Assembly (NCBI GenBank): GCA_947649225.1
Contig: CANSQX010000006.1
Location: forward strand, 1-41,793
DNA length: 41,793 nucleotides
Origin: an uncultured Flavonifractor sp.
Lineage (GTDB): Bacteria; Bacillota; Clostridia; Oscillospirales; Oscillospiraceae
Reading direction: 5' to 3'
This document shows positions 11,132 through 20,791 of the stretch, one piece after another. Made by a program: the position numbers and the translations under genes. Position 1 is the stretch's first letter. Each line of letters opens with the position of its first letter. The notes under the pieces were generated by a model. That model saw only the letters and a list, made by a program, of their open reading frames with translations, was not told where the DNA came from and ran no database searches.

Positions 11132-12406
11132 TCAGTTGAAGCTCCCGTCCCACAGGGGCATATTGGTGAGGTATTTTCCCTCCACGGCGGGCACGTAGTA
11201 CGCGCCGTACATCGTCAGCTCCTCCGCCATCTCTATGTTGGGGTTTCGGGGCAGCTCCACCCAGAATTTGTAGTAGGGCAGGTAGATCTCCTCGTACCCG
11301 CTGGCCCGGTAGACCAGATCAACATGGGCCACCGGCCACGCCCCCGTTGGAGCCTCCTCCTGGGGCACGGTGGTGATAAAGTGCCCCTCCCGCAACAGCG
11401 CTTCAGCCTCCTCCGGGGAGATGATGGGGTAGTCCCCCAGCTTTTCGGCGTAGGTCAGGCCGTGCTCCAGCCAGAGCACGTGCAGCTCCCCCCCTTCGCT
11501 CACGCCGAACCAAACGCGGTGGAACGAGCGGCTCAGCATCTGCTCCTCCACGCTGCCCGCCCCGTCGCAGGCCCGCAGATCTGTAATGGGTACACCGTTG
11601 AAGGTGTAGTCTGTGGCAATCATCCGGCGGGGCTCCACATAGCCGTGCAGATCCGCGTACTGTTCCAGCAGGAGGTCTGTGACGCGCTCCGCCGCTTCCC
11701 GGGAAGAAGTCTCACTGCCGTCCGGCAGGGCGGCATAAGGCTCAAAGAAGATCCCCACACTGCCGGATGGGTCCACCCGGATCTCCGCCAGGGGCGTCTC
11801 CGCCTCCAGTCCATCCACGGCGCTGTCAGGCAAAGTGGTGCCAAAAGCGTGCTCTCCCACCCGCTCATAGGTCACCTGGGTAATCTCAGTCCCTAACGCC
11901 GCCGCCGTTTCCTCCGCCAGGGCCAGCATGGCGGCGCCGCCGTCGGGGGCCACGGGCATGTAGTCCGTATAGGCGGTGTTGCGGTAGACCGGCAGGGCGC
12001 TCACTTCCGCCTCCGGCGTCCAGGGGCTGCCCGTGTCCAACTCGGACACGTCGCGGACCATGATCCCCTCAAAGCCCATCCCCATATCGCCGCTCTCCCG
12101 GATGGTCAGCAGAGGGAGCCCGTTCAGCGTGGGGACGGGTGTGGGGGCCGGAGCGGGCGTCCCGCCGGGTATGGCCTCCAGGGCGGCCAGGGGCCGGAAG
12201 TTTTGCACCAGCGCCGCCCAGTTCCACGCCTCCGCCAGCCTTGTTCCGCTATAGGCCGCCGCAGCCACCACGGCCAGACAGGCGGCCAGGGCGATCCACC
12301 GCCGCCAACTCCGCCGCCGGACCATGCGCTCCGGGGCCGCGTCCTCGATCCATACCTCCCGCACCCCTCCCAGGGCCTCCAACAGCCGCTCCGCATCTGT
12401 ATTCAT
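11132..12406 (-). CDS. Probable membrane-anchored anti-sigma/regulatory protein paired with the ECF sigma factor
   Basis: A 424-residue protein with a short cytoplasmic N-terminus (about residues 1-36, ending in MVRRRSWRRW), one membrane helix (about 37-58, IALAACLAVVAAAAYSG), a Pro-rich spacer (TPAPAPTPVPT, about 85-95) and a large extracytoplasmic domain rich in acidic and aromatic residues. The start overlaps the sigma gene stop by four bases (ATGA), so the two are translated together. Position and topology fit an anti-sigma factor, but no zinc-binding HxxxCxxC motif is seen in the N-terminus, so the anti-sigma role is inferred from context. The outer domain is not one I recognise. Confidence 0.72.
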   Translation of the reverse strand: MNTDAERLLEALGGVREVWIEDAAPERMVRRRSWRRWIALAACLAVVAAAAYSGTRLAEAWNWAALVQNFRPLAALEAIPGGTPAPAPTPVPTLNGLPLLTIRESGDMGMGFEGIMVRDVSELDTGSPWTPEAEVSALPVYRNTAYTDYMPVAPDGGAAMLALAEETAAALGTEITQVTYERVGEHAFGTTLPDSAVDGLEAETPLAEIRVDPSGSVGIFFEPYAALPDGSETSSREAAERVTDLLLEQYADLHGYVEPRRMIATDYTFNGVPITDLRACDGAGSVEEQMLSRSFHRVWFGVSEGGELHVLWLEHGLTYAEKLGDYPIISPEEAEALLREGHFITTVPQEEAPTGAWPVAHVDLVYRASGYEEIYLPYYKFWVELPRNPNIEMAEELTMYGAYYVPAVEGKYLTNMPLWDGSFN

Positions 12407-12963
12407 ACTGCAATTCCCTCCCGTTCTAGATGGGCCTTCAGCCTGCCCCGCAGACGGTGCAGCATGGCGGCCACCTTGCTCTCGGTGTACCCGGTCCGGG
12501 CCGCGATGTCCCGCACCGGGGTCAGATGCCAGTACCGCATCAAAAACACCCGGCGCTGCTCCCGACGCAGTCCGGCCAGAAAGCGGTCCAGGCTCTCGGC
12601 CAGGGGGCCGTCCCCGTCCGCCCGGGCCGCCGGATTGGCCGCCGGGAGGCAGCCCTCCAGTTCCGACAGGGCCAGGGCCGTCTCCCCGCCGCCCCGCTTT
12701 TCCGCGTGGTCCCGCTTCCAGCGGTCCAGGGCCAGGTTACGGGTGAGCCTCCCCAAAAAGGCGGACAGCCGGTCGGGCCGTTGGGGCGGTATGGCGTTCC
12801 ACGCCCGCAGCCAGGTGTCGTTGACGCACTCCTCTGCGTCCTCCCGGCTGGCCAGAATGCCGTAGGCGATGCGGTGGCAATAGGGGCCGTACTTGCGCTG
12901 GGTCTCCTGCACAGCGGCGTCCGCCCGTGCCCAGTACAGGTCAATGATGGCACTGTCTTCCAT
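12403..12963 (-). CDS. ECF-type RNA polymerase sigma factor
   Basis: A 186-residue sigma-70 family factor of the extracytoplasmic function class. Region 2 includes ILASREDAEECVNDTWLRAW (about residues 36-55), the hallmark core-binding and -10 recognition helices, then LGRLTRNLALDRWKR. A Gly/Ala-rich linker follows. Region 4 is LAGLRREQRRVFLMRYWHL with the helix-turn-helix VRDIAARTGYTESKVAAMLHRLR (about 148-172) for the -35 element. AAAGGAG lies upstream of the start at 12963. It is the first gene of a two-gene unit with the membrane protein. What it responds to cannot be seen. Confidence 0.93.
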   Translation of the reverse strand: MEDSAIIDLYWARADAAVQETQRKYGPYCHRIAYGILASREDAEECVNDTWLRAWNAIPPQRPDRLSAFLGRLTRNLALDRWKRDHAEKRGGGETALALSELEGCLPAANPAARADGDGPLAESLDRFLAGLRREQRRVFLMRYWHLTPVRDIAARTGYTESKVAAMLHRLRGRLKAHLEREGIAV

Positions 12964-13484: not shown

Positions 13485-14957
13485 TCAGGCAGGCTCCAGC
13501 CGCACGGTTTTTGTCGCAATGGCCTCCCGGAAGGCGCGGTCGTGCTCCACGAAGACCATGGTGGGCGAAAACTCCTGGATCAGCCGCTCGATCTGAATGC
13601 GGGAGTACACGTCGATAAAGTTGAGGGGCTCGTCCCAGAGGTAGAGGTGGGCCCGCTCACAGAGGCTTTTGGCGAGGAGCACCTTCTTTTTCTGGCCGCC
13701 CGAAAAGGACTCCATGGGCTGCTCCAGCTGTGCGCGCTCGAAATTCATCTTTCGCAGGATGGTTTTCAGCTGGCTCTCGTCAATTTGGCTGTCCGCCGCC
13801 AGTTGGGCCAAGGTGCCGCGCAGCTGGGACGTGTCCTGGGGCACATAGGAGACCGTCACCCCGGAGCCCATGGAGACCGTGCCGGTGTGGGCCGGGGGCT
13901 CGCCCAGCAGGAGCTTCAATAAGCTGCTCTTGCCGCTTCCGTTCCGGCCGTCGATCACCAGCCGGTCGCCCTGCCGCACCGTAAAGGAGACCGGCGCACA
14001 GGCCGCTTTTCCGTCATAGTACACTGCGGTCCCGGTACACGCGGCCAGCACCGCCCCGTGATAGGGCGTGGGGGAGAGCTTCAGACGCTCGGCGGTCTCG
14101 GTGTTTTGCAGGAGCTGGGCCTTTTGCTGAACGGCCTGCTGCCGCCGGGCCTCGATGGACTTGGAGCGCTTCATCATCTTGGCGGCCTTGTGGCCCACAT
14201 AGCCCCGGTCCACCGGGCCGTTCCCGTATTTGGAGGCCTCCGTCCGGCCGGACCAGGCGGAGGCCTGCCGGGCCGCCTGCTGGAGACGGCCGATGTCCCG
14301 TTGGAGGCGCTGGTTCTGGGCCTCCTCAAAGTCCTGCTGCCGCTCGAAATTTTCCATCCAGGACGAAAAGTTGCCGCTCTGCACCTGGATATCCGCCCGG
14401 TTGAAGGACAAAATGTGGTCTACGCAGCCGTCCAGAACGCTGCGGTCGTGGGACACCAGAAGGAACCCCTTTTTCCTGTTCAGGTAGGCGGCCAGCAGTG
14501 CCCGGCCCCGGGCGTCCAAGTGGTTAGTGGGCTCGTCGATAAGGAGAAAGCGCCCCTCGTTCAGGAACAGGGCCGCCAGCAGCGCCTTGGTCTGCTCTCC
14601 GTTTGAGAGGGTTGCAAAGGGCCGCTGGAGCACGCTGTCGTTCATCTCCAGAAAGGACAGCTCGCGGGTGAGCGCCCACAGCTCGGCCTGGGGGCAGATC
14701 GCCTGCAAAACTTCCTCGGTCGTGCGGCTTTGATCGGGGACGGGATATGGGAAGCAGTCAAGAGCTACGGACGCCGTAATCCACCCCCGGTACGCCAGCT
14801 CGCCCAGCAGGAGCCGCAAAAATGTGGTCTTCCCCCGGCCGTTCCGGCCCACCAGGCCGAGCCGCCAACTGGTGTCAATCTGAAAGCTGGCGTGGTCGAA
14901 CAAATCGCCGCCGGACGGGAAGGAAAAGGTCAGATCCTCGATCTGAATCATGGACAT
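13485..14957 (-). CDS. Lsa-type ABC-F ribosomal protection protein
   Basis: A 490-residue ABC-F protein: two nucleotide-binding domains joined by a linker and no membrane segments. These proteins bind the ribosome and displace drugs at the peptidyl transferase centre; Lsa relatives protect against lincosamides, streptogramin A and pleuromutilins. NBD1 has GRNGRGKTT, signature LSNGEQTKALLAAL and LLIDEPTNHLD. The linker is long and charged (about residues 190-300). NBD2 has GRNGSGKSS, FSGGQKKKVLLAKSL and LYLWDEPLNFID. The opening MSMIQIEDLTFSFPSGGDLF is Lsa-like. The start at 14957 is set by AAGGAGG seven bases before; the frame is open further upstream, through the leader terminator. The long leader suggests drug-inducible attenuation. 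The exact drug range is inferred from the family. Confidence 0.88.
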   Translation of the reverse strand: MSMIQIEDLTFSFPSGGDLFDHASFQIDTSWRLGLVGRNGRGKTTFLRLLLGELAYRGWITASVALDCFPYPVPDQSRTTEEVLQAICPQAELWALTRELSFLEMNDSVLQRPFATLSNGEQTKALLAALFLNEGRFLLIDEPTNHLDARGRALLAAYLNRKKGFLLVSHDRSVLDGCVDHILSFNRADIQVQSGNFSSWMENFERQQDFEEAQNQRLQRDIGRLQQAARQASAWSGRTEASKYGNGPVDRGYVGHKAAKMMKRSKSIEARRQQAVQQKAQLLQNTETAERLKLSPTPYHGAVLAACTGTAVYYDGKAACAPVSFTVRQGDRLVIDGRNGSGKSSLLKLLLGEPPAHTGTVSMGSGVTVSYVPQDTSQLRGTLAQLAADSQIDESQLKTILRKMNFERAQLEQPMESFSGGQKKKVLLAKSLCERAHLYLWDEPLNFIDVYSRIQIERLIQEFSPTMVFVEHDRAFREAIATKTVRLEPA

Positions 14958-14984
14958 AACAAAGCACCTCCTTGGTCTGCGCTG

Positions 14985-15026
14985 CAAAAAACAGGAGCCG
15001 CAGGAAGACTCACTTCCCGCAGCTCC
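14985..15026 (-). terminator. Attenuator hairpin in the ABC-F leader
   Basis: On the minus strand the RNA can pair GGAGCUGCGGGAAG with CUUCCUGCGGCUCC (15013-15026 with 14994-15007; 5-base loop), then runs into UGUUUUUUG, just upstream of the ribosome site of the ABC-F gene. Two pairs are G-U wobbles on this strand and would be C-A mismatches on the other, so the structure is built for the minus-strand transcript. A competing pairing is available between GCAGGAAG (15094-15101) and CUUCCUGC (15000-15007), an antiterminator. Confidence 0.75.
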
Positions 15027-15150
15027 GCACAGCATGGCAACGCCGCTGACAGCGCGGCGCCGGAGGCATGATATGGAACAGTGGACGGATGACCTTCCTG
15101 CAAGGGGCGCTGCAACACTGCCGCAGACCGTACCGGCTGCGAAGCCCCAT
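15010..15150 (-). CDS. Candidate leader ORF of the ABC-F gene (46 aa)
   Basis: An open frame from ATG at 15150 to TGA at 15010-15012 begins MGLRSRYGLR and ends VRSCGK; it is Arg- and Cys-rich. Its stop falls in the loop of the attenuator hairpin, where a ribosome would mask the 5' arm. An internal ATG at 15069 gives a 19-residue alternative. Neither has a clear ribosome site, so translation is unproven. Confidence 0.4.
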   Translation of the reverse strand: MGLRSRYGLRQCCSAPCRKVIRPLFHIMPPAPRCQRRCHAVRSCGK

Positions 15151-15206
15151 CAAGTATAGCAGGAAGTTAAATCATCGTTCCACTGCTTTCTTCTGTGATT
15201 GGGGTG

Positions 15207-15235
15207 AGTATACCACATCATCCGGCGGGAATCAA
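15207..15235 (-). promoter_or_regulatory. Promoter of the ABC-F transcript
   Basis: Minus strand: TTGATT (15230-15235), a 17-base spacer, TATACT (15207-15212) with a TGG extension. It predicts a leader of about 240 bases. A second TGC-TATACT box (15153-15158) lies further down and could be an alternative start. The remaining 15240-15380 holds GC-rich dyads and no gene. Confidence 0.65.
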
Positions 15236-15386
15236 GTGCTTTTTTGGCGGCGGCGTCTTTCCGGCCGCCTCTGCGCAGGCCGGATCCGGCGCAGCCGGAC
15301 GGACGGCTTGGCAGATTGCCGAATTTCACCCGATTTTGTATGAATTTTTTATTCCGAAAAAGGAATAGGTTTTTGGGTGGAAATAC

Positions 15387-15454: not shown

Positions 15455-18400
15455 ATGAAAGCATTTGGAAAGATGCTGCGGAAGCCGGGGTGGCTGGCGG
15501 TTCTGCTCTGCGCGGGCATCATTCTGCCCAGTTTCAGCGGCCTGTCGCTGGCGGCGGACCCGGATAACGGAGACGGCCTGTGTGAGCATCACCCGGCGCA
15601 TACGCTGGAATGCGGCTATGCCGCGCCTGCGGAGGAGATCCCCTGCGCCCACGTACACGACGGGGCATGCGGCTATGTCCCGGCCCGGGAGGAGATCCCC
15701 TGCGACCGGAATTGCGGGACGCAGGACGCCCCTGCGCCGGAGGATCCCCCGGAGACAGACGCGGCCCCGGACGGGGCGGCTCATGACCCGGACTGCGCCT
15801 ACCGGCCTGCGGAGGCAGAAACGCCCTGTATTCATACCCACGATGCGGCCTGCGGCTATGCCCCTGCGACGGAGGGGCGGCCCTGCGGGTTTGTCTGCCT
15901 GGCTTGCAGGGACGGCGAAGGGCCGCAAAGCGCGGAGATCCAATCCTGGAGCTGGGAGGACCCGGAGGGGCTGCTGGTCTATGCGCCGGAAACCGGCTGC
16001 TGGGGACTGGGCGTGCCCGGCGCCAGCGCGGACAGCCCGTTGATGCCGGAGGCGCTGGCGGAGCTCCTGCCCGGGGCGGCGGTGCTGACGCTGGACGGCG
16101 GCGACCAGGAGACCGTGACGCTGACCTGGGACCTGAGCGCAATCCCGGCGGAGGGCGCGGCCAGCGGCAGCTATGTCCTCACCGCCGCCCTGCCCGAGGG
16201 ATACGCCCTGGGCCCCGGTGCCCCGGCGCTGGAGGTGCTGGTGGAGATCGGCGGAGGAGAGGGGTATGATCTGACCCCGTGGGCGTTTAATAATTGGAAG
16301 TGGGAGCATTACGGAAAGCCTGATGTTGCTGTCCTTTACGTTGGTATAGACGGGATTCAATCAGCGGATGAATTAGCAGTTTTGCTGAAAAAGAATCTTC
16401 CGAAGGAAATTTATGTGAATGTGTGGAGTGATAGAGGGTCTGCATTTTATGTTGCGGAAACTGCAACAACAGGATGGTTGAAAGTATTTTGGAATGATTT
16501 GGAGACACAGTTGCAGAATATCGATTGGCACAACACTTTTCAGGTATATGCTACACCGCCAACCGACGATAAATATGATTATATAGTGAATGATGATGCA
16601 AAACCGGCACCTAACAGAATGGAGCGGCTCCCGATTACGATTTGCCCTTGCTTTTTGAGCGATCATATTGTTACCCCTGTGGAGCCGGAGAACGTTACGG
16701 TGAATCTGTTTGACTACTGGGTGCAGACGGATGGAGCGGCCGGTGACGATCTTCTGCCCAAGACTGACATACATGTCAACAATAAAAGTGAAGAGGTTAA
16801 GCGAACCGGAGTAGATGACTGGAATCATGGAATCAACGCAGGGCGTCTGTTTCTCTTTGGAGACGGCAACATCCACGCCGGATTCTGGAACAAGGGAGCC
16901 GGGGCCGTAACGTCCTACGGCAAAGAGAACGCCGGTATGCCGGGCATTGTAGAGCCTGTGCTTCAATCGGGATATCCTGTTATCAACACAGCGGATATGA
17001 CGAATCTGATGGACGGCGAAGCAAAAACATATCAAGGTATTACTGACTGGGAGCTCTGCGGGGACCATATAGGGTTACCAGACGACACCCAACATGATAG
17101 TTCAAATTATCAAAATATCAGCAACACTGTGATCAACTTGTGGAAAGAATCTGGAAATACCGCCTCGCTGGACTATCTGTTTACCCCGGAAGATGGTGAC
17201 TATAAGCGGACCTATCCAGATGTCGAAGGCCTGTTCCAGCTGGATGCACACGGGTATTACTACTATGACATGCGGCGAAATTATGCCGAATATGATCAAG
17301 AGAGCAACAAGTTTGTCCTGTATGACGCCCCGGCGGTGGATCGCACGGATGGACTTTACGATGATGCCGCTGACGACTGGACAAAGACACGCAGCACTGG
17401 GAATTTCTTCCCGTTTAACCCGGCGTCCGAGGTCTTTACCGGCGTAAAGGACGGAAAGCTGATCAGCAGCACGGCCGTCCAAAGCGATAACAAATTGAAC
17501 AAAAGCGCACGCCCGATGAACCACCATCTGGGCATGACGGTGGAGATTGATTTCCTCCAGCCGGCGGGCGGCAAAATCAAAATGGGCGCGGACGCTCCTG
17601 TGCCCATGACCTTCCAGTTCTCCGGCGACGACGACGTGTGGATCTTTATCGACGACGTGCTGGTTCTGGACCTGGGCGGCGTCCACAGCGAGATCTTTGG
17701 CACCATCGACTTTTCAAACGGAAAGGTCTCGGTGGGGCAGAGCTGGAAGACCAACGGCTTCCCCTATAACGAGGACGGCACCGTCAATGTGGGAAAATTG
17801 GAGGAAAACTCCATTCTGAACACCACCCTCAAACAGCTGTTTGCCGATGCCGGGAGGGAGGATCATACCACCTGGACCGGCAACACCTTTGCCAGCAACA
17901 CCGACCACACCCTGAAAATGTTCTATCTGGAGCGCGGCAACTACGACTCCAGTCTGGCCCTGCGGTTCAATCTTCAGCCTCTGCTGGACCAGGAGCTCAA
18001 GAAGGTGAACCAGGACGGGGAGCCCGTGCCGGACGTGAGCTTTGACCTCTACGCGGCGGAGGACGCGGGGAACGGAATGTACGCAGTTCATCCCAAATTC
18101 CCCAATGCATTCGCAACTTTGACCACCGGCCCGGACGGTACCGTGAAATTTTTAGAGCCGGAAGAGAACGCCGGTGGACGGTCGGAGGGCGAACTGAAAA
18201 ACAGAGAAGGCCGCCCCTTCAACTTTGCAGACCGCTATACAACGGACGGCATTCGGTATTACATCTTAAAGGAAGTGAGAACCCCGGCGGGCTACCGCCC
18301 GGTTCCGGTGGATGTCGTCTTGGAATACCACCCAGAGACTACCACCTTAACCGTGGCCAACCGCTGGACCACCGGTGGTGTATCCAGCTTCACCACCCAT

Positions 18401-20791
18401 ATCTCGGGCAGTACCAACATTACCTATGGACAATTCGACAATGAGCACGGAAACATCAGTGCAGGCAATGTGAAGGTGGACCCTGAGGACCAGAAAAACG
18501 GACTGGTGATTGCCGTTCCCATGACTTGGGTGGAGGGGGAATCGCGCTGGAAAGCGCTGTACGGCAGCAATACAACAGGCTTTCAGACTGTGACTCCGGA
18601 GAAGCGGGAGGCGAAATTCTGGCGCAAAGCGCTGCTGACCGCCGCGCTCTATCAGTGCGCGGATGAGAACACCCCCAGCTGGTATCTGGAGTGGAATGAC
18701 GAGACAAGGCGCCTGGAGGGCGTTCTGGCCGATCTGCCCGGCATGGCCAGTCAGTACCAGTTTAACAACCCGGCGGGCGCCGACATGAAACTGGTCTATG
18801 CCATCATCGACCCAGCGGCCCTTGTAAAGCTTGGCGTGATAGACGCCTCGGCCGGCGAGAGCGGTTCGGCTGATGGGGGTATCCCGGCCGAGAGCGAACG
18901 GTACGCAAAGCTGAGGGGCTACATCAATGCTCAGGTTCAAAGTGGTAAGAGCCTCGATGCCGTGGCGAAAGAAACGGTTGAGATTATTTATGGTACTCGG
19001 GAGGGCGCGAACGGCCGCGGCGTCAGCTTCCTGAACGTAGGCCAGTTCACCCAGAACGCCCGCTCCCTGCTCTACATCCCCAACGAACAGCGGGAGCTGC
19101 GGGTCTGGAAGGTGGATCAGAACGGCCGGGGCGTGAACGGCGCAGAGTTCGGGTTGTATGACAACCCGGACTGTACCGGAGACCCTGTGGCCTCCGGTAC
19201 AACCGGCACGATAGACGGCCGGGACGGTGTGCTGATCTTCGCACCTTATGTAGGCGATGATCCCGCTCATGGCCAGGTGCAGTTTGCGTGGGCCAGCCAT
19301 GAACATGAAAACACCAAAAATTATTGGCTGCAAGAGAGAACGCCCCCTGCCGGACACACCCTTAATCCCACCAAAATCCCCGTGGTAGTGGGCACCTACT
19401 CCATCTACGCCGACGCGGGCGCTGAAAACGACGGCGTAAGCGTGATGGCAGGCGTCGGCAAGCTGGTGCAGACCATGCTCCGCTTTGCCGCGAATGAGGA
19501 GTTGGACATCACCCTCCGGGACATCACCGCCTTTGCCCAGCACCAGGCCAGCGGCAGCTACAGGTCTAACAACTGGGCCGACCTGCCGATGGAGGGCACG
19601 GGAACTCCTGGGATTCCCTGGAGCATGAATCTGCACTACGGAAAAGCCCATGGCACTACGCAGGGGTTTGGCGAGTATTTGAACTACGGCCTGCACGCTG
19701 AGGACGGCGGCGCAAACATTTACCCGTTCTTTACCGCCGACACCGGCTATCTCCGCGCCCGTGTGGAGCAGAACTACCCGGCCCTGACGGGGGATCTCTA
19801 TGAGGGCTCCCAGAGTACGGCGAACAAGATAGACCTGGGAGACACGGACATCACCAGCCTGTTTACCCTGCTGAACGTTGTGGTAGTGACCGATGTGGAG
19901 GAGCAGCCCACCGAGAGGACCGGCCGGCTGACGATCAGTAAGACCGTCAAAGGCGACAAGCTGGAGAAGGAGGACTATAACCGTCCCTTTGTCTTCACCA
20001 TCAAGCTGACCGATGCGAACGGAGTCCCCCTGACCAAGGGGTACAAGTACTATTTCTATGGGCAGAGCAAATCCGGCGAGATCTCGAACGACGGGGAGCT
20101 CCGTCTCCACCACGGCGACCGGGTGACCATTCTAGGTCTGCCTGTGGGGGCGACATTTACTGTGACCGAGGCCGGGCAGAGCGGCTGGATACCGGAGCCC
20201 GCCAGCGGCACGATTCTGGGAACTATCACGGAGACCGAGCCGGGGAAGGCGGAGTTCACCAACATCAAGGGAACGCCCACGCCCACGCCTACGCCGACAC
20301 CCGGCCCTCCCTCCTCCGGCCCAGACCCGACGCCGCCGCCCACGCCTACGCCGACGCCGACCCCCACGCCCAGCCCGTCTCCGACGCCTTCCCCCACGCC
20401 CAGCCCAACGCCGGGGCCTACGCCCAGTCCCAGTCCTAACCCGAGCCCCAGCCCAGCGCCCAGTGCGGCCCCCAGTCCCAGTCCAGGACCCAATGGGCCG
20501 GAGCCGCCCCCAGATCTCCCCACAGAGCTGCCCGACCCCAACGACCCGGAGAGCCCGGACACTGTCACCATCCTGGAGGATGGCGTTCCCACCACCTACA
20601 TCAAGGTGTGGGATCCAGAAGAGGAGGAGTTCTTCTACATCCCCGATGAGGAGGTCCCCCTGATCCCGATGACTGGGGATCGTTCCCCCGGGGCCCTGTG
20701 GGGTGTGCTGGCCCTGTCCGCGCTGGCAGGTCTGGCCCTGGTTGGAACCACGCCCAAGAAATCCGGCCAGCGGCGCGATACAAAGGAATAA
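15455..20791 (+). CDS. Large sortase-anchored surface adhesin (fibro-slime and SpaA/Cna-B domains)
   Basis: A 1778-residue secreted, wall-anchored protein. The signal peptide is about residues 1-34. Residues 42-150 carry three or four Cys/His units of the form C-x-H-x-H-D-x-x-C-G-Y, separated by PAxEEIPC-type linkers. A fibro-slime/PA14-like domain around 714-755 holds [20 protein letters not shown]. SpaA/Cna-B-type domains lie at about 847-965 (opening [20 protein letters not shown], closing with the TPAGY turn) and 1214-1315 ([20 protein letters not shown]); a third beta-sandwich (ISKTVKG) spans 1489-1605. Such domains often form Lys-Asn isopeptide bonds. A Pro/Thr/Ser stalk (1607-1692) leads to an IPMTG sorting signal near 1736, a membrane helix and a KKSGQRR tail. 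It is probably a pilin-like or adhesive stalk. No sortase gene is nearby. Codon use is AT-rich from about 16285 to 17260. Confidence 0.93.
20272..20500 (+). repeat. Degenerate ACGCC(C/T)/CCCAGT repeat coding the Pro/Thr/Ser stalk
   Basis: About 230 bases of imperfect 6-base units (ACGCCC, ACGCCT, CCCAGT) inside the adhesin encode alternating Pro with Thr, Ser or Gly. Six-base units keep the frame, so copy changes would lengthen or shorten the stalk without breaking the protein. Confidence 0.85.

Follow-up and report, generated by a model that had tools for sequence, protein, structure and literature searches.

The window analysed here, a 41,793-nucleotide stretch of a draft contig from an uncultured Flavonifractor sp., encodes on its minus strand an ABC-F protein of 490 residues behind a leader of ~243 nt, measured between an inferred transcription start near 15200 and the ATG at 14957. 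The protein has two ABC_tran domains (Pfam) and scores 457.9 bits to the NCBIfam model ribo_prot_ABC_F, above its cut-off of 380. Its top NCBIfam model is the Lsa family NF000167, matched over the full length at 675.9 bits, below the curated cut-off of 750. The solved structure closest to it is LsaA 7nhk (E 1.5e-118, PDB search), and it scores 399.7 bits to LsaA versus 157.7 to VmlR/ExpZ. The Lsa-type label of a preliminary description of this DNA therefore holds as to the ABC-F class and the top model, with the Lsa score under its cut-off; on these matches we would call the protein Lsa-like rather than a certified Lsa, and the gene behind the leader a predicted resistance-type ABC-F gene.

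The gene adjoining the leader upstream is divergent (15455-20791, plus strand). Its product is a surface protein of 1778 residues that has SpaA and DUF7601 domains and whose C-terminal part is rich in proline. The ABC-F gene is followed downstream by a gene for an ECF-type sigma factor (12403-12963, minus strand) and then by one for a 424-residue protein without a Pfam or NCBIfam match (11132-12406, minus strand). A plasmid DNA similarity search gave no match to the window, and the window's own genome holds no second leader copy except one chance fragment.

Leader layout and competing pairings

Between 13400 and 15500, a consensus scan returned TTGATT and TATACT, separated by a 17-nt spacer and with TG preceding TATACT, as the sole minus-strand promoter match (both strands together: 2 matches versus 0.5 expected). 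In 33 of 36 relatives a -10-like hexamer lies 20-60 nt 5' of the upstream start codon, where shuffles expect 12.1. Both the clear promoter and the leader of about 240 bases reported in the preliminary description were borne out.

An intrinsic terminator is predicted before the gene: a stem of 14 pairs (two G-U) spanning 15026-14994, with a 5-nt loop, is followed by TGTTTTTT, and 15025-14986 has a predicted folding energy of -23.7 kcal/mol (z -5.7). The GC-rich hairpin and U6 described earlier are real, but their placement immediately before the gene was loose, as 28 bases separate the end of the U6 from the start codon. The competing pairing of eight bases (15094-15101 with 15000-15007) was confirmed, GCAGGAAG at 15101-15094 being the perfect complement of CTTCCTGC at 15007-15000. 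That account lacked three elements: another copy of CTTCCTGC (15166-15159), a small frame, ATGATTTAA (15175-15167), and a long hairpin (15187-15077). The second CTTCCTGC directly follows ATG ATT TAA and is an exact copy of part of the terminator 3' arm; GCAGGAAG sits between both copies, complementary to each. Dinucleotide shuffling of the leader reproduced this order of 8-mer, complement and 8-mer again in 3 of 5000 trials. The fold of 15200-15075, which contains the long hairpin, reaches -53.6 kcal/mol (z -4.4). The earlier argument that wobble pairs assign the structure to the minus-strand RNA holds for the terminator (-23.7 kcal/mol on the minus strand versus -14.4 on the plus strand), but the upstream hairpin is indistinct in this respect (-53.6 versus -51.4). 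As judged from sequence and fold, the four segments (Table 1) form an anti-antiterminator/antiterminator/terminator circuit, with 1:2 plus 3:4 as the predicted off state and 2:4 as the predicted on state.

Table 1. Features of the ABC-F leader and gene (window coordinates)
Feature	Position	Strand	Basis
-35 hexamer TTGATT	15230..15235	-	consensus scan, sequence
Extended -10 hexamer TATACT	15207..15212	-	consensus scan; -10-like hexamers of relatives
Shine-Dalgarno region of upstream frame, AGCAGTGGAA	15178..15187	-	degraded versus GAGGTG of relatives; anti-SD pairing energy
Upstream reading frame ATG ATT TAA (ATGATTTAA), Met-Ile-stop, proposed sensor	15167..15175	-	ATG aligned with relatives
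Segment 1 CTTCCTGC, anti-antiterminator 5' strand	15159..15166	-	bases +10 to +17 from upstream start codon
Anti-antiterminator hairpin	15077..15187	-	fold and covariation
Anti-antiterminator pairs	15187-15179:15085-15077, 15176-15171:15093-15088, 15166-15159:15101-15094	-	
Segment 2 GCAGGAAG, antiterminator strand	15094..15101	-	complementary to segments 1 and 4; 2:4 covariation
Segment 3, terminator 5' arm GGAGCTGCGGGAAG	15013..15026	-	
Segment 4, terminator 3' arm CTTCCTGCGGCTCC	14994..15007	-	
U-rich terminator tail TGTTTTTT	14986..14993	-	
Shine-Dalgarno of ABC-F gene, AGGAGG	14967..14972	-	sequence
Lsa-type ABC-F ribosomal protection-like protein, 490 aa, ATG 14957	13485..14957	-	NCBIfam, Pfam, PDB

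Relatives of the leader and covariation

Relatives were drawn from a scan of public genomes, which gave 80 named loci, and from a family search, which gave 30 with sequence. Most Clostridial relatives share the segment logic and a frame of the type ATG NNN NNN NNN TCY TGC (AAR/AGA) stop behind the Shine-Dalgarno GAGGTG. Across 39 aligned leaders, 93.5% of cells in the repressed structure are paired and 16 pairs show changes on both sides (0 of 500 shuffles as high); sliding the alignment by 1-3 columns drops pairing to 44-55%. Terminator cells are paired at 99.1%, almost all leaders have a strong terminator with a U tract, and unconstrained RNAalifold recovers the anti-antiterminator together with the terminator.

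The antiterminator helix 2:4 is 93.4% paired in the same 39 leaders, with 6 both-side-changed pairs (5 of 500 shuffles as high) and 24 both-side-changed cells (0 of 500). One position illustrates how the segments change together: with upstream frame, segment 2, segment 3 and segment 4 read in turn, 16 leaders have T-A-A-T and 9 have C-G-G-C, most of the remainder being wobble intermediates. A covariance model built from the aligned leaders contains no 2:4 pairs. In 37 leaders outside model building, pairing stands at 95.8% for 2:4 (17 both-side changes) and at 96.9% for 1:2 (18 such changes), levels that 0 of 1000 shuffles reach for either helix, with the counts of both-side changes possibly inflated by relatedness of the sequences. 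Covariation of 2:4 on leaders aligned without 2:4 pairs is the strongest single item in this analysis. Covariation in homologous leaders had been named in the preliminary description as a check, and the leader passed it in the 39 aligned leaders and in the 37 others.

Pairing of segment 1 with segment 3 was considered as the main alternative and rejected. Its core pairs (96%) as a consequence of the match between segments 1 and 4, yet it does not extend: 2:4 pairing continues into the loop of the terminator in 79% of cells, versus 47% for the 1:3 extension.

Among 295 genomes of the order, 52 contained matches to the covariance model, and 44 of the 50 matches inspected, the window's included, lie before an Lsa-type gene. 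Of the other six, four are weak matches before unrelated sequence. One good leader match (L132:182-900) precedes a broken Lsa-type gene remnant, and one (L134; genome G495, contig 16), with the frame MIYVSC, precedes a gene for an MsbA-type ABC exporter rather than an ABC-F gene, which suggests that the switch was reused. Farther afield, the Lsa-type gene of Scardovia wiggsiae (L033) has at ~-306 the sequence GTG TAC AGC TTT TCC TGC AGG TAA, a GTG-started frame of the Clostridial type; this actinobacterial Lsa-type protein groups with the Clostridial ones, a placement that suggests transfer.

A second conserved leader frame was seen ~84-160 nt before the gene in 41 of 109 Lsa-type loci (L009-L011, L014-L025, L040, L045-L085 and L091) and is absent from the window. 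It reads M(S/N)xSDTIVTHxxLRISR* in Bacilli and M..IVTHDxLRIVSV.. in Clostridia and has its own Shine-Dalgarno. In these loci CTTATACGGAG is the pairing partner of CTCCGTATAAG, and TTTGTAT is a possible partner for the Shine-Dalgarno of the gene. This second frame looks like a translation attenuator. It stands in tandem with the transcription attenuator in several loci, and no mention of it was found in the literature searched.

Proposed mechanism and its alternatives

The upstream ATG at 15175 aligns with the invariant ATG of 38 relatives. From this ATG to the end of segment 1 there are 18 nt in those 38 leaders and 17 in the window. Some 17-18 nt is about the reach of a ribosome positioned at the start codon. 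In Bacillus subtilis vmlR, a 30S toeprint lies at 16 nt (PMC9226507). Frame length, by contrast, varies: relatives mostly have six or seven codons, three are found in MRK frames (L102, L111-L113, L115 and L160), and two in an MR frame (L139) and in the MI frame of the window, the short frames needing at least five changes on the protein tree. A fixed distance combined with a variable frame suggests that the start codon rather than the peptide matters, as would be expected of drugs that halt ribosomes at initiation or in the first steps, and in line with published work on vmlR and cplR.

Masking a ribosome footprint at the start codon lowered the median penalty of the antiterminator from 16.6 to 3.4 kcal/mol and made it the best fold in 8 of 35 leaders. 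In the window the penalty fell from 23.6 to 5.3 kcal/mol; the terminator fold is still 5.3 kcal/mol better, so antitermination there would have to rest on the order of co-transcriptional folding. Covariation of both helices and this energy shift support the anti-antiterminator and antiterminator as mutually exclusive pairings.

We consider it probable that the leader is a ribosome-mediated transcription attenuator, as indicated by the promoter, terminator, both pairings, covariation, spacing and predicted energy shift. Namely, without drug, ribosomes would complete the two-codon frame at 15175 and depart, segment 1 (CTTCCTGC) would pair with segment 2 (GCAGGAAG) in the long hairpin, segments 3 and 4 would form the terminator, and RNA polymerase would halt at ~14986. 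A drug stalling a ribosome at or just past the start codon would cover segment 1. Segment 2, thus freed, would base-pair with the loop and the 3' arm (segment 4) of the terminator; termination would fail and the ABC-F gene would be transcribed. The expected drugs are lincosamides, pleuromutilins and streptogramin A, the usual substrates of Lsa proteins. Drug-sensed transcription attenuation, as proposed in the preliminary description, gains support from the covariation and both pairings; that account lacked the sensor and the anti-antiterminator, both of which are present, while translation of the frame, the drug and induction are parts we infer.

The window copy has its own peculiarities. Its Shine-Dalgarno core is GCAGTG versus GAGGTG, with a best anti-SD pairing of -7.3 kcal/mol, the weakest of 39 (next, -9.7), and, with one base fewer than the consensus, its frame reads Met-Ile-stop. 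The shorter frame rests on ATGATTTAACTTCCTGC as read in a single draft assembly, 80.7% complete and the sole genome of its genus compared. The weak Shine-Dalgarno and two-codon frame make inducibility of this copy uncertain. They also speak for a decayed switch, in which the sensor has been lost, the anti-antiterminator always forms and the terminator keeps the gene permanently low; in vmlR, mutation of the upstream frame's Shine-Dalgarno or start codon abolishes induction (PMC9226507). We regard such decay as unlikely, though deserving of weight. All pairings of the window are intact: the eighth base of segment 2 has changed from A to G and is met by C in both segments 1 and 4, and the altered Shine-Dalgarno still pairs with 15085-15077. 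Frames of two or three codons occur in other leaders, and the ABC-F reading frame is intact. On the sequence at hand we would tentatively rank a minimal sensor above a switch losing its sensor.

Other readings dispense with this sensor or with transcriptional control. The switch might act mainly on translation, with CCTCC at 15066-15062 hiding the ABC-F Shine-Dalgarno until rearrangement frees it. That CCTCC:GGAGG pairing is possible in the full-leader fold, and vmlR and cplR combine transcription and translation layers; we nonetheless hold this improbable, as CCTCC is not conserved in the alignment and the strong terminators with U tracts recur in almost all leaders. Less credible still is a sensor in another frame, GTG GAA CGA TGA (15183-15172): the stop codon of this frame overlaps the ATG and AGAAG is plausibly spaced to serve as its Shine-Dalgarno, but in relatives the GTG is part of GAGGTG, the Shine-Dalgarno of the ATG frame. 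There is very little likelihood that ribosome sensing plays no part, the leader being a plain intrinsic terminator of upstream transcription or regulated by a protein or metabolite. The terminator is strong by itself and 8-base matches alone are weak evidence; however, the upstream neighbour is on the opposite strand, so there is no upstream operon to terminate, and relatives retain the start codon with its Shine-Dalgarno, the distance from that codon to segment 1, and a short frame closed by a stop.

Comparison with known attenuators

ABC-F genes controlled by ribosome-mediated transcription attenuation are well known. The leader class found here before Lsa-type genes of many gut Clostridia has apparently not been described before in this form. 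Rfam has no family for it, as judged from the window, 13 homologous loci and the window leader at a lax threshold. Literature searches by peptide or topic, covering sources outside subscription papers, found no published description of the class, and the names of the upstream-frame peptides gave unrelated matches only. One Rfam family comes near: RF02452 (ncr1575), which is listed there as an sRNA, has matches in two Bacillus leaders that precede Lsa-type genes (L050:2565-2781 and L075:2567-2783). We discarded the idea that RF02452 is the vmlR leader, since the gene behind the L075 match is of Lsa type; as that match includes a MIN frame, RF02452 is probably an attenuator. Neither the window nor the tested Clostridial leaders match it at the gathering score, and 14900-15300 gives no match at E up to 10.

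By comparison alone, Lsa-type genes in many gut Clostridia stand behind one conserved putative drug-sensing leader without an Rfam entry. The covariance model could flag likely inducible lincosamide, pleuromutilin or streptogramin A resistance in metagenomes. If the proposed mechanism is true, the Met-Ile frame of the window would be among the shortest sensors known for an ABC-F gene. It also becomes testable whether such sensors depend on a peptide or just on a start codon placed at a constant distance from the switch.

Published upstream frames are MAGN for LsaA, MIN for VmlR, MK[L/Q] for VmlR2 and MR[I/M] for CplR. In B. subtilis vmlR, the response to lincosamides and pleuromutilins through the MIN frame is experimental, with MRK less effective (PMC9226507). 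Similar to the window, the vmlR leader has a short frame within an anti-antiterminator hairpin, an antiterminator competing with a terminator, an ABC-F gene downstream and a proposed start-codon stall (PMC9226507). VmlR is not Lsa-type, however, and the sequence differs; in the class described here, the switch strand either overlaps the frame or comes right after it, and the antiterminator finds its partner in the loop and 3' arm of the terminator. Clostridioides difficile cplR likewise combines a clostridial ABC-F gene, a tiny upstream frame and a terminator, with induction shown for lincomycin and retapamulin (PMC10201436). It belongs to another ABC-F subfamily, and its terminator hides the gene's Shine-Dalgarno, whereas that of the window lies 14 nt past the U tract. 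LsaA shares with the window an upstream frame before an Lsa gene; its MAGN peptide, drawn from an 80% identity cut-off around LsaA, is unlike the MxxxSC(K/R) and MI frames found here (PMC10201436).
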